35,697 nucleotides of DNA from a virus. The notes under the pieces were generated by a model that did not search any database, was not told the DNA's origin, and worked only from the letters and a program-made list of their open reading frames with translations. The position numbers and the translations under genes are program-made. This document shows positions 4,411 through 29,017 of the stretch, piece after piece (the first letter of the stretch is position 1; each line of letters starts with the position of its first letter). The stretch lies in the IMG/VR virus record IMGVR_UViG_3300006128_000006, positions 1-35,697 of that record. The stretch is one strand, 5' to 3'.

Positions 4411-5292
4411 ATGTCGCAAAATCTCTCCGGGTACATCACGGAAGTCAGACGTTTGCTGCATGATGCCAATGCGAATTTTTACACGGATCAGCAGCTAACA
4501 GATTACATTAATTCCGCACGGGAACGTCTTGTGCGTGATACTGGCTGTCTGCGAACGATTCAGGTTATACAAACACCCCCTCCTCCAGCTACAACGATTG
4601 GTGGCGTAACCGCTACCGCACCAACACCTTGGTTAGCCAATACTTATTATGCTGCTGGAACATTTATATTCAGTAATATTTACACCTACCAGGTTACAAC
4701 GGCAGGAACAACAAGCAGTTCTGCGCCACCGTATCCATTAAGTTCTGGTAGCACATTTAACAATTATCCACCTAGCACTGAGTTCTTAAATGGTACTTGT
4801 GGTTTGACGTATGTAGGTAACGTTGAGCAGATACCTTTCTCAACCTTACCGCAAGGGCTACAAACTTTAGATATTCTTAACATCAACTTGTATTGGGGTA
4901 ATTCTCGTGTGCCATTGGACTATTTGTCCTGGTCAGACTTCAATGCAAGGCTAAGATTTTGGCAAAACTACATTGGTAGACCTTGTTGTTTCTCTGTATA
5001 TGGTCAAAATACGATTTATATCGGTCCTATTCCAGATCAAATCTATCAAATTGAGATGGATACCGTTATTTTGCCTTTACCTTTGAGTTTAAGTACGCCA
5101 ACGGTCAACGATACCATTCAATCGCCTTATACAAGCCCTGTACAGTTCTATGCAGCGTATTTGGCTAAGTTCTATGAGCAATCGTTTGGTGAATCTGAGA
5201 TTTACAAGCAACAATACACTGCACAAGCTCAATCTGTACTGAATTCGGTCTTCACACGAAGAATTCCATCTCCATATAGCAATATTTATTGA
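4411..5292 (+). CDS. Head-tail adaptor protein, P22 gp4-like (293 aa)
   Basis: The N-terminus (GYITEVRRLLHDANANFYTDQ, then QLTDYINSARERLVRDTG) is the helical signature of short-tail adaptor proteins of the P22 gp4/SU10 adaptor type, which bind beneath the portal ring and carry the nozzle. A Pro/Thr/Ser loop (50-120) and a C-terminal helical section (YAAYLAKFYEQSFGESEIYKQ) follow. At 293 residues it is longer than P22 gp4 (about 165), mainly because of the loop. The next gene, the nozzle candidate, supports the assignment. Confidence 0.75.
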   Translation: MSQNLSGYITEVRRLLHDANANFYTDQQLTDYINSARERLVRDTGCLRTIQVIQTPPPPATTIGGVTATAPTPWLANTYYAAGTFIFSNIYTYQVTTAGTTSSSAPPYPLSSGSTFNNYPPSTEFLNGTCGLTYVGNVEQIPFSTLPQGLQTLDILNINLYWGNSRVPLDYLSWSDFNARLRFWQNYIGRPCCFSVYGQNTIYIGPIPDQIYQIEMDTVILPLPLSLSTPTVNDTIQSPYTSPVQFYAAYLAKFYEQSFGESEIYKQQYTAQAQSVLNSVFTRRIPSPYSNIY

Positions 5293-5293
5293 T

Positions 5294-7282
5294 ATGGCAG
5301 CGGCAGAGCAGAAAAAATCGTATCAAGTAGTCAAAACCTTTAGGGGAATTGATACTCAAGCTAACCGCACAGCTATTAAAGAAGATGAGTTTTCTTGGTT
5401 AGAAAATGCTCAACCTATTGGTTACGCTAACCTAAAGATCATTCCTAACTACAATACTGTCACGATAGCCAATACTGCTGTTACGTGGGCAAATACTGCC
5501 ACGACTTTAACTTCTGGAAACGTTAAATTAAAAGATTATGTGATTGCATTCCAGGCAGATGGAAGCGCACAGTATTACAACGCTACAGATGGCACAAAGG
5601 GTGTTGTTGCTAGTGCAGGTACATTTAGTGGTGCAGGAGTACAAACCGCACAATGGAAGAACGACAGAATCTTAATTCTTGATCCATCTAAGGGTTATTT
5701 CTCTTGGGATGGCAATAATGTTGTCAATATTGGTTCTGTAGGCGTTATTGCGGTTACAAATGGCGGTTCTGGCTATGTCAGCCCAAGTGTCACAATTGGT
5801 GCGCCTGGTGCAAACGGTACACAAGCCAACGCTGTGGCAACCGTATTGTCTGGTGTGGTTGAAACTATCTCTTTGGTTGATGCGGGTTCTGGATATAACC
5901 CTGCAAGCCCACCTAGCGTCACAATTAATGATGCGTCAGGCACAGGTGCAACCGCTATTGCAGGTGTAGTGACATTTGCGACAGGTACAGCCTCTGCTGT
6001 GGTGGTCACAGGCGGTAAAGGATATACAAACGCTGCAAATACCGTTGTGTCGTTCTCAGGGGGTGGTGGTTCAGGTGCTGCTGGTACTGCCATCCTCGCT
6101 GGCGGTCAGGTAACGGAAATTGTAATTACGAATCCAGGTTCAGGTTACACAAATGCAGCCAATTTGGTGGTGACCGTCTCAGGTGGAGGTGGAACAGGTG
6201 CAGTACTTAAAGGAATTGTTAACTCTGATCCGAACGTTGGGATTGCGTCTTTTTCAGGGCGTGTGTGGATCGCTGCGGGTAGGACTATATATTACTCTGC
6301 TGCTAATTCCTACACTGATTTTACTTCTGTTTCTGCTGGCAGTTTTGTTTTAACAGATGAAACCCTACATGGAAACATACAGCAGATTTTATCTGCCAAT
6401 AACTTCCTGTATGTATTTGGCGATGATTCAATTAATGTTATCTCAAACGTTATTGTTAACAGCAATGGCGTTACGTTATTCACCAATACAAACGTATCGG
6501 CATCTGTAGGGTCAAAAAGACCGTATACGATCTTCCCGTATTTCCGTTCTGTGCTGTTTTTGAACGATTATGGCGTGTATGCACTCGTTGGTAGCACGAC
6601 AACCAAACTATCAGACCCTTTAGACGGTATTTTCCCTAATATCGACTTCACATACCCGATTTATGCAGGTCAAGTGCTGCTGAACAACATTTTGTGCGCT
6701 GCATTTAACTTTAGATACTATGATTCAGTATTTACGCAGTCATATCGCTATATTCAAGCTGTTTTCTTTGAAAAGAAGTGGTTTATCACTTCTCAAGGCG
6801 ACAATCTGACGTATATCACTTCTGTCCCGCTAAATGGTCGTATTACGCTGTTTGGTACGGATGGCACGACTTTATATCAGCTATATCAGAACGTATCGGG
6901 TTCCATCACCAGTAGGATTCAGACTGCTTTGTTGCCAATGGGTGACCCAATACGCACTAAGCAAGCTCTAAAAATCGGTATTGAAGCGACTGCTACGAAT
7001 GTAAGTTCGATCACGATGAGTGCAACGGTCGATTACGAGAATGGATCAAGCCCACCTTATACGCTGACTTCTCTAGTGGTTTGGCAGAACAATAATCTGC
7101 AAACGATACCGTGGGTGAATAACAGTAGTGTACAGATAGGCTGGGGTCAGATTGGCTACGCTTTGTACAAAACTGATGCGTCACAGTATGGAAAATATTT
7201 AGGCATTACAGTAACATCTACTAATCCTGCGTTTACTGTAAATGGATTCGAATTTGAACATGAATTGAGAGTGAGGTTCTAA
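5294..7282 (+). CDS. Tail nozzle/stabilisation protein with inserted Gly-rich repeats (662 aa)
   Basis: It follows the adaptor by one base. The N-terminus (KTFRGIDTQANRTAIKEDEF, then SWLENA) and repeated WD-like beta segments (ILILDPSKGYFSWDG, FLYVFGDDSINVIS, VLFLNDYGVYALVG) match the beta-propeller tail proteins of short-tailed phages (P22 gp10-like/nozzle), which seal the tail channel. Residues about 150-310 are four degenerate copies of a roughly 40-residue unit, xxVTNxGSGYxxxPxVTIxGxxGTGAxAxA. They are inserted between two propeller strands and probably form a protruding beta structure. Confidence 0.75.
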   Translation: MAAAEQKKSYQVVKTFRGIDTQANRTAIKEDEFSWLENAQPIGYANLKIIPNYNTVTIANTAVTWANTATTLTSGNVKLKDYVIAFQADGSAQYYNATDGTKGVVASAGTFSGAGVQTAQWKNDRILILDPSKGYFSWDGNNVVNIGSVGVIAVTNGGSGYVSPSVTIGAPGANGTQANAVATVLSGVVETISLVDAGSGYNPASPPSVTINDASGTGATAIAGVVTFATGTASAVVVTGGKGYTNAANTVVSFSGGGGSGAAGTAILAGGQVTEIVITNPGSGYTNAANLVVTVSGGGGTGAVLKGIVNSDPNVGIASFSGRVWIAAGRTIYYSAANSYTDFTSVSAGSFVLTDETLHGNIQQILSANNFLYVFGDDSINVISNVIVNSNGVTLFTNTNVSASVGSKRPYTIFPYFRSVLFLNDYGVYALVGSTTTKLSDPLDGIFPNIDFTYPIYAGQVLLNNILCAAFNFRYYDSVFTQSYRYIQAVFFEKKWFITSQGDNLTYITSVPLNGRITLFGTDGTTLYQLYQNVSGSITSRIQTALLPMGDPIRTKQALKIGIEATATNVSSITMSATVDYENGSSPPYTLTSLVVWQNNNLQTIPWVNNSSVQIGWGQIGYALYKTDASQYGKYLGITVTSTNPAFTVNGFEFEHELRVRF

Positions 7283-28312: not shown

Positions 28313-28510
28313 TTAGATAATAGTATCCCCAAGGGTGCTAAACTCGCTCCCTTGACCCATGTGCGTAGCACACCAGTCCTTCCTGAGATAATGTTCAATC
28401 GTTAATAGTCTTGTCGCACCATGTCCTATTAACTTGTGCAGTACCCATTTAAGTCTGCGAGGCGTGCGTACGGGTGCAGTACAGCCTATGTTCTCTCCCA
28501 AGCCATCCAT
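28313..28510 (-). CDS. Small hypothetical protein (65 aa)
   Basis: The ATG at 28510 has GAGAG 8 bases before it. The product (TPRRLKWVLHKLIGHGATRL, then HYLRKDWCATHMGQGSEF) is basic in the first half, with a Cys/His-containing middle. It does not match an ORF on the other strand and follows the structured RNA. Coding is plausible because of the ribosome site and the compact gene order. Confidence 0.5.
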   Translation of the reverse strand: MDGLGENIGCTAPVRTPRRLKWVLHKLIGHGATRLLTIEHYLRKDWCATHMGQGSEFSTLGDTII

Positions 28511-28555
28511 ATAAATGCTCTCTTATCGTATGGGGTACGGATGTGCGTAAAGAAT

Positions 28556-28658
28556 AAAAAAACCGCTATAGTAAGTGTCCGGTGATGGAATCCTTGCGGG
28601 ATCAACCCTTGCGGGTTCAGACACTTGCTATAACGGTTTAATTGTCCATCACGACAAC
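28556..28658 (-). ncRNA. Candidate structured small RNA with intrinsic terminator
   Basis: On the minus strand a 20-base arm (28639-28620) pairs with 28579-28560 over 20 positions with one G-U and one C-A mismatch. Inside are two small hairpins, AACCC-GCAA-GGGTT (GNRA tetraloop) and ATCC-CGCAA-GGAT. A third hairpin TTGTC-GTGATG-GACAA (28657-28642) precedes the stem. A run of seven T (28562-28556) follows, terminator-like. Overall it folds as a stem with a three-way junction. Nothing supports coding here. It could also be an oversized terminator for the genes at 28681-29017. Confidence 0.65.
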
Positions 28659-28664
28659 ATCCGC

Positions 28665-28694
28665 ACAATATCAAACTAAATCAATGCTTGTCAA
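28665..28694 (-). promoter_or_regulatory. Putative promoter of the structured RNA
   Basis: On the minus strand, a consensus TTGACA (28694-28689) inside the 3' end of the 57-codon gene and TATTGT (28670-28665) are 18 bases apart. The predicted start is near 28658, just before the first hairpin. The -10 box matches consensus at four of six positions only, so it is a candidate. Confidence 0.4.
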
Positions 28695-28854
28695 CTACCT
28701 TTTGTTCACTAGGCGGTTTAAATCCAAACTTAGCCCAGGTCTTGCGTATATCTGTCTTACTGGCAGGTACATATTCCCATTCGGGGTTTAACAAGCTAGC
28801 GTTATGTTGTTGCACTCTCTGTGCGTGCGCTATTTCTCTATCAAAATCATCCAT
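28681..28854 (-). CDS. Small hypothetical protein (57 aa)
   Basis: Leader TAAGGGGATAGAA before the ATG. The product starts MDDFDREIAHAQRVQQHNAS and includes LLNPEWEYVPASKTDIRKTW, then AKFGFKPPSEQKVVDKH. It is charged and has no TM segment. A clean leader and coupling to the upstream secreted peptide support translation. Confidence 0.65.
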   Translation of the reverse strand: MDDFDREIAHAQRVQQHNASLLNPEWEYVPASKTDIRKTWAKFGFKPPSEQKVVDKH

Positions 28855-28864
28855 TTCTATCCCC

Positions 28865-29017
28865 TTAATTACACGTAGTTACACAGTTTTGGTTATTCTC
28901 ACCAGTGCAGCACGTAATACATATGTGCACTTTACCATCTGATCCCATAAACGAATTACTGCTACAAGCCCAGGCAACACCAGATACAAACAACAAAGCA
29001 ATTAATAAGTACTTCAT
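28865..29017 (-). CDS. Secreted Cys-rich micropeptide (50 aa)
   Basis: The ATG at 29017 has TTAGGGG. The first 17 residues (MKYLLIALLFVSGVAWA) form a signal peptide with an AWA-C cleavage context; C18 could also suit a lipobox but the -3/-2 residues are poor. The mature part holds six Cys (18, 33, 36, 37, 45, 49), enough for three disulfides. No second TM. It would be exported to the periplasm early in infection. Similar signal-peptide-plus-CTTCC peptides occur in other phages, with unknown role. Confidence 0.75.
   Translation of the reverse strand: MKYLLIALLFVSGVAWACSSNSFMGSDGKVHICITCCTGENNQNCVTTCN

Follow-up and report, generated by a model that had tools for sequence, protein, structure and literature searches.

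Among the closest described counterparts of the element reported here, called RNA1, are lambda oop, P22 sar and similar phage antisense sRNAs, which are likewise short phage transcripts (RNA1 being a predicted one); lambda oop has its own promoter (PMC12197685). These sRNAs are antisense to a phage gene, whereas RNA1 is intergenic, is conserved in shape and not in sequence, and has its loop sequestered; at the locus examined in this study, RNA1 is not overlapped even by the nearest opposite-strand ORF (28688-28942). HK022 putRNA, a structured phage RNA of the early transcription unit, acts by shape and in cis, suppressing pausing and termination (PMC9378689), but RNA1 ends in a terminator, and no sequence or structural match between the two was seen. 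GOLLD and ROOL are structured RNAs of phages and prophages with unknown function, and the predicted structure of ROOL contains several pseudoknots (PMC12286853). These two are far larger than RNA1 (hundreds of nt) and often lie near tRNA islands, and neither was found by our Rfam search. In phi29 pRNA, loop-to-loop pairing is central to function. That pairing is intermolecular and serves a small packaging ATPase, whereas the complement of the RNA1 loop always lies within the same RNA and the phage examined here has a large terminase; the phi29 pRNA model (RF00044) gave no match to RNA1. Furthermore, RNA1 matched no family of Rfam 15 at the gathering threshold, the best sub-threshold scores falling far under the cut-off, and no paper naming it was found in the literature covered, which was largely open-access and did not include the main RF02932 paper. 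The RF02932 family (Betaproteobacteria-1), which we take to be a candidate structured RNA with no known function, is the neighbour of RNA1 in three phages and not RNA1 itself. Judged from its sequence, RNA1 is probably a structured phage small RNA of the oop kind, with its own promoter and terminator, but not antisense to a neighbouring gene.

The window, namely the whole stretch of 35,697 nucleotides analysed here (IMG/VR record IMGVR_UViG_3300006128_000006), represents a phage of about 36 kb that encodes the large terminase, a RecE-like exonuclease, a RecT-like annealing protein and a PAPS-reductase-like protein. RNA1 runs from 28658 to 28556 on the minus strand (103 nt) and is composed of a 5′ hairpin, a stem of ~22 bp enclosing two small hairpins, and seven U. 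It is flanked on the same strand by a small ORF of 57 amino acids (28854-28684) and by a 65-aa reading frame (28510-28316) that is probably no gene. The features of the locus are as follows.

28689 to 28694, minus strand: −35 box TTGACA (6/6), read from the sequence
28665 to 28670, minus strand: −10 box TATTGT (4/6), spaced 18 nt from the −35 box; like that of most homologues, it ends 12 nt ahead of the pseudoknot loop
28556 to 28658, minus strand: RNA1, structured RNA of 103 nt with a predicted +1 at 28658 and its 3′ end at the U-tract
28641 to 28658, minus strand: P1, 5′ hairpin GUUGUC-GUGAUG-GACAAU, from the fold; present in homologues with altered sequence
28645 to 28652, minus strand: 5′ strand of the pseudoknot, GUGAUGGA, the 6-nt P1 loop plus 2 nt; exact complement of 28589-28582, covarying
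28618 to 28639, minus strand: 5′ arm of P2, AAACCGUUAUAGCAAGUGUCUG, from the fold
28604 to 28618, minus strand: P3, hairpin GAACCC-GCAA-GGGUU with a GNRA loop, from the fold; widely varying in homologues
28589 to 28603, minus strand: P4, hairpin GAUCC-CGCAA-GGAUU, from the fold
28582 to 28589, minus strand: 3′ strand of the pseudoknot, UCCAUCAC, directly adjoining the P2 3′ arm, covarying
28560 to 28581, minus strand: 3′ arm of P2, CGGACACUUACUAUAGCGGUUU, from the fold; covariation at nearly all P2 positions
28556 to 28562, minus strand: U7 tract, an intrinsic terminator together with P2, read from the sequence
28316 to 28540, minus strand: RNA2 of class alpha, about 225 nt, with covariation among 43 homologues; wrongly listed as a 65-aa ORF at 28313-28510

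A sequence-only reading had delimited the element almost to the base, and what it described is there: an arm of 20 positions with one mismatch and one wobble (28559-28579 with 28620-28640, plus-strand reading), two inner hairpins of the minus strand sharing CGCAAGG, one of which is CCC-GCAA-GGG with a GNRA loop, a third hairpin preceding them (28658-28641), seven U after the stem (28562-28556), and a consensus −35 box 36 nt ahead of the first hairpin (TTGACA, 28694-28689). The reading had seen neither the 8-nt pseudoknot of the P1 loop nor the second structured RNA, RNA2, at about 28540-28316. RNA1 folds with −43.8 kcal/mol (z = −5.95), none of 200 shuffles being equally good, and z ranges from −6 to −7.6 across the RNA1 members tested; the first part of U7 is base-paired to the A residues in the 5′ arm of P2. 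The pairing of the P1 loop with UCCAUCAC is missed by such a fold because nested folds cannot show pseudoknots. A plus-strand reading was dropped for its poorer fold, the U run being on the minus strand, and an outer stem suggested by a wider fold (28535-28543/28658-28666) was not accepted as part of RNA1, since part of it lies ahead of the predicted +1 and one of the closest homologues (L107) has no such stem. ORFs of 62 and 65 amino acids across the locus were also rejected, given an in-frame stop in a homologue and the covariation.

About a hundred contigs of uncultured phages carry this fold in dozens of different sequences, nearly always beside a second, larger structured RNA, which leads us to regard RNA1 as a real and apparently undescribed phage RNA. 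A first set of homologues came from IMG/VR, through two pattern scans together with a covariance model (R1) based on 16 members; many of the 81 matches of the first viral scan were chance terminator-like or coding sequences and were sorted by eye and with the covariance model. Loci are designated by L numbers: L107 and L001 are close to the window, the main group includes L019, L083 (GenBank MW202674), L085, L123 and others, further groups are L006/L150 and L010/L022/L169/L172, and L146, L132 and L170 are divergent. L110 was left out of the counts as doubtful, its complement lying within a hairpin loop in another topology. The P1 loop differs in sequence among these groups, and its complement is altered to match in each: GUGAUGGA/UCCAUCAC, UUGGUCGAC/GUCGACCAA, UUGGCGGA/UCCGCCAA, GUGACGA/UCGUCAC, GUAGAAA/UUUCUAC, UGGAACG/CGUUCCA, UGGCAG/CUGCCA and UUUGCGC/GCGCAAA. 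In the covariance-model alignment of 19 distinct RNA1 sequences, 95.2% of the cells pair and 23 pairs are changed on both sides; the cells changed on both sides number 73 versus 19.4 in shuffles (a count reached by none of 500), and with the partner slid by 1-3 columns the pairing drops to 43-48%. L006 and L150 count against the pseudoknot in this alignment only because it is one column off there.

Since the sequence downstream of RNA1 is also conserved, loci can be selected blind to RNA1 itself. Three scans with core motifs of RNA2 gave such an unbiased set of 99 distinct loci, from which 89 distinct RNA1 sequences with a scored P2 stem and U run were taken, and the 45 nt before P2 were compared for an exact complement with the segment at most 2 nt from the P2 3′ arm. 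An exact complement of 6-10 nt was present in 74 of the 89 (83%), as opposed to about 6% with swapped 5′ arms and about 4% with shuffled arms, and the 74 comprise 43 different pseudoknot sequences. In the 71 sequences used for pair counts, P2 shows several pair types at most positions and the pseudoknot abuts P2 exactly in 67; the six core pairs in these counts are paired by selection, however, so that 74/89 is the fair figure for the pseudoknot. Relatedness, which the shuffle controls ignore, is only a small worry given the many different sequence pairs. The window itself has the hallmark of the family, a 5′ loop complement of at least 6 nt abutting the P2 3′ arm, with 8 nt and a gap of 0 (28652-28645 with 28589-28582). 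The remaining 15 of the 89 have no detectable exact pseudoknot at the usual place, and some have another inner layout. Among class-beta loci, L273, L278, L280, L282, L289 and L290, as well as L270, L275, L276, L284, L285 and L291, have an RNA1 counterpart that is laid out differently inside and shows no exact pseudoknot in that position.

Upstream of RNA1, perfect boxes of sigma-70 type are strongly enriched across the family: TATAAT occurs in 20 of 74 distinct upstream regions (27%, versus 2% in shuffles) and TTGACA in 14 (19%, versus 0.3%). In 60 of the 74, furthermore, the −10 box ends 11-15 nt ahead of the pseudoknot loop, and a start 7 nt past the −10 box would therefore fall on the first bases of P1. 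The window likewise has a predicted sigma-70-like promoter whose +1 would lie at P1. With the start so predicted, RNA1 would measure 88-142 nt, with a median of 117.

P2 with U7 has the make-up of an intrinsic terminator, namely a GC-bearing stem and then a U run, and a 20-bp stem followed by U7 is indeed the textbook form of one; RNA1 might then be an ordinary over-built terminator with extra structure arising by chance. Such a terminator needs no pseudoknot, yet 43 different pseudoknot sequences are kept at a fixed position, and the promoter is fixed at P1; in its simple form this explanation is already refuted by the covariation, and we give it hardly any credence. Absence of compensatory changes in the stem, named in the sequence-only reading as a refuting outcome, is strongly contradicted, as both the stem and the pseudoknot covary. 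The pseudoknot, the covarying stem, the promoter at the first base of the hairpin and the seven U thus point to a discrete small RNA rather than a plain terminator. We are highly confident in the structural claim drawn from sequence comparison, namely that RNA1 is a real, conserved and pseudoknotted RNA that has a terminator of its own and a predicted promoter fixed at the first base.

In nearly all members, RNA2 starts about 15-20 nt past the U tract of RNA1 and is roughly 225-350 nt long. The 43 RNA2 of class alpha align with 55 consensus pairs, 27 of which are changed on both sides, and the would-be 65-aa ORF has an in-frame TGA in the MW202674 homologue. Other classes are beta (L019, L152, L156), gamma (L006, L010, MW202753), delta (L107, L117, L123) and epsilon, the last being RF02932, which lies directly behind RNA1 in L172 (2566-2691), L169 and L091 with scores of 85.1, 85.1 and 79.5 bits against a gathering cut-off of 49.4. 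RNA2 of classes alpha to delta had no Rfam match, the class-alpha RNA2 of the window scoring below the 49.4 bits of RF02932. By eye, the 5′ domains of alpha to delta look alike.

The order of RNA1 and RNA2 is constant and their spacing near-constant in nearly all of the 99 RNA2 loci, and both RNAs are structured and share a strand. It is thus conceivable that they are parts of one longer RNA, serving for example in replication or packaging, with the U-tract of RNA1 read through or processed. RNA1 types and RNA2 classes combine freely, however: RNA1 with a GUGAUG loop precedes RNA2 alpha, beta, gamma and delta, RNA1 with a GUAGAA loop precedes alpha, beta, gamma and epsilon, and a single RNA2 class is found behind many RNA1 types. 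Furthermore, each occurs alone in a few phages (RNA2 in L179, L210 and L252, and RNA1 in L132 and L170), and we regard the single longer RNA as rather improbable.

The genomic setting is varied as well. In one phage group, RNA1 lies behind a Cro-like gene (PHROG 35 ‘transcriptional repressor’, 2e-12) and opposite a leftward operon, which in MW202674 includes the erf and ssb genes; in other phages it lies behind a DNA methyltransferase-like gene or ahead of a PAPS-reductase-like gene. A lysis-type gene precedes it in L093, and the RNA1 and RNA2 of L088 (2125-2260) are found among structural-looking rather than early genes (both named from sequence). The latter setting suggests that the RNA1-RNA2 unit can move, and the variety of settings shows it to be independent of any single gene.

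The chief rival of a small RNA is a cis-acting leader, in which RNA1 would be a conditional terminator (attenuator) reached from the +1 that controls transcription into RNA2 and the following genes, while the pseudoknot would determine how strongly or when termination occurs. RNA2 does follow about 15-20 nt after the U-tract, with same-strand genes behind it and no obvious promoter of its own; the pseudoknot would close right before the last strand of P2 is made, and the layout resembles the early terminators behind cro. On the other hand, P2 is about 20 bp long with no readily visible antiterminator partner, the downstream genes differ among phages, RNA2 also occurs without RNA1 (L210, L179, L252), and sigma-70-like motifs follow RNA2 in some phages, though not above the shuffled background. 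On balance, we consider the attenuator unlikely but worth serious attention. The suggestion of the sequence-only reading that the element is a switch controlling the downstream genes is accordingly less likely, given the variable genes, the several genomic settings and a main stem without a visible alternative partner, whereas another of its suggestions, a phage small RNA, is well supported by the covarying stem and pseudoknot, the fixed-distance promoter, the terminator and the wide recurrence; a decoy, its third suggestion, is a possible role.

We therefore lean, with some reservation, toward RNA1 as the product of a free-standing small-RNA gene, stable and acting in trans within a two-RNA cassette, a function that we infer. 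The free combination of types, the varied downstream genes and the occurrence of each RNA alone favour an independent RNA, whereas the constant order favours the cis-acting terminator or a joint function; indeed, RNA1 sits nearly always just upstream of RNA2 and is oriented toward the next genes like a leader, which counts against the small RNA, as do the −10 box of the window with only 4/6 matches and the 15 of 89 RNA1 sequences in which no exact pseudoknot was detected at its place. In the proposed mechanism, a sigma-70-like promoter would start transcription at the first base of P1, and P2 with U7 would end it some 103 nt further on. While the final strand is emerging, the loop of P1 would pair with the segment abutting P2, and the pseudoknot would stack end-to-end on P2, so that both ends of RNA1 would be tucked into helices. 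The finished RNA would be stable and act in trans by its shape more than its sequence, possibly as a scaffold or decoy whose partner would be a protein of the host or the phage, or RNA polymerase, and might work within the cassette together with RNA2. An architecture kept while the sequence is almost wholly changed indeed points to recognition by shape. The cassette could prove to be more than a structured phage small RNA: we tentatively raise the idea, which we doubt more than we believe, of a mobile phage module made wholly of RNA: a pseudoknotted small RNA conserved in shape would be joined by an ornate RNA, exchangeable among several, and the module would serve a purpose (host takeover, anti-defence or control of RNA polymerase) unlike that of any described phage RNA.

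If the transcript exists, RNA1 represents a structured phage RNA family that is seemingly common in environmental samples and almost missing from cultured phages; this scarcity may be the reason that it is apparently undescribed. A sequence search of 50,697 GenBank phage records found only MW202674 and MW202753, the latter via its RNA2; the RNA1 of MW202753 is unrelated in sequence and invisible to the covariance model, and was recognised by its architecture, namely TATAAT, a hairpin loop GACUGAUAACA, an 8-nt pseudoknot CUGAUAAC/GUUAUCAG, a long stem and a U run. Of RNA1 members with the commonest form of P2, a single scan of 84,980 genomes of bacteria and archaea revealed none, and other forms would have escaped it; its four matches have no pseudoknot and were dismissed as chance. 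Plasmids gave no RF02932-like DNA. The locus also adds several structured RNA classes in the form of RNA2 and places Betaproteobacteria-1, an RNA catalogued earlier, in a phage context, and the 43 natural loop/partner pairs make the design of compensatory mutants straightforward.

Two minor observations concern the annotation and surroundings of these loci. In GenBank, ‘hypothetical proteins’ (e.g., UOF80262.1 and UOF81610.1) that are probably not genes cover RNA1 and RNA2; the loci with such annotations are L083 (MW202674, record positions 4977-5300) and L175 (MW202753, locus 2347-2778). Between RNA2 and the next gene, close to promoter-like motifs (which, as mentioned, do not exceed the shuffled background), a palindrome TTAAGnnnnCTTAA is found in L083, L133, L180, L181, L185 and others, amounting to about a third of 36 alpha loci; it is possibly the operator of the Cro-like protein.
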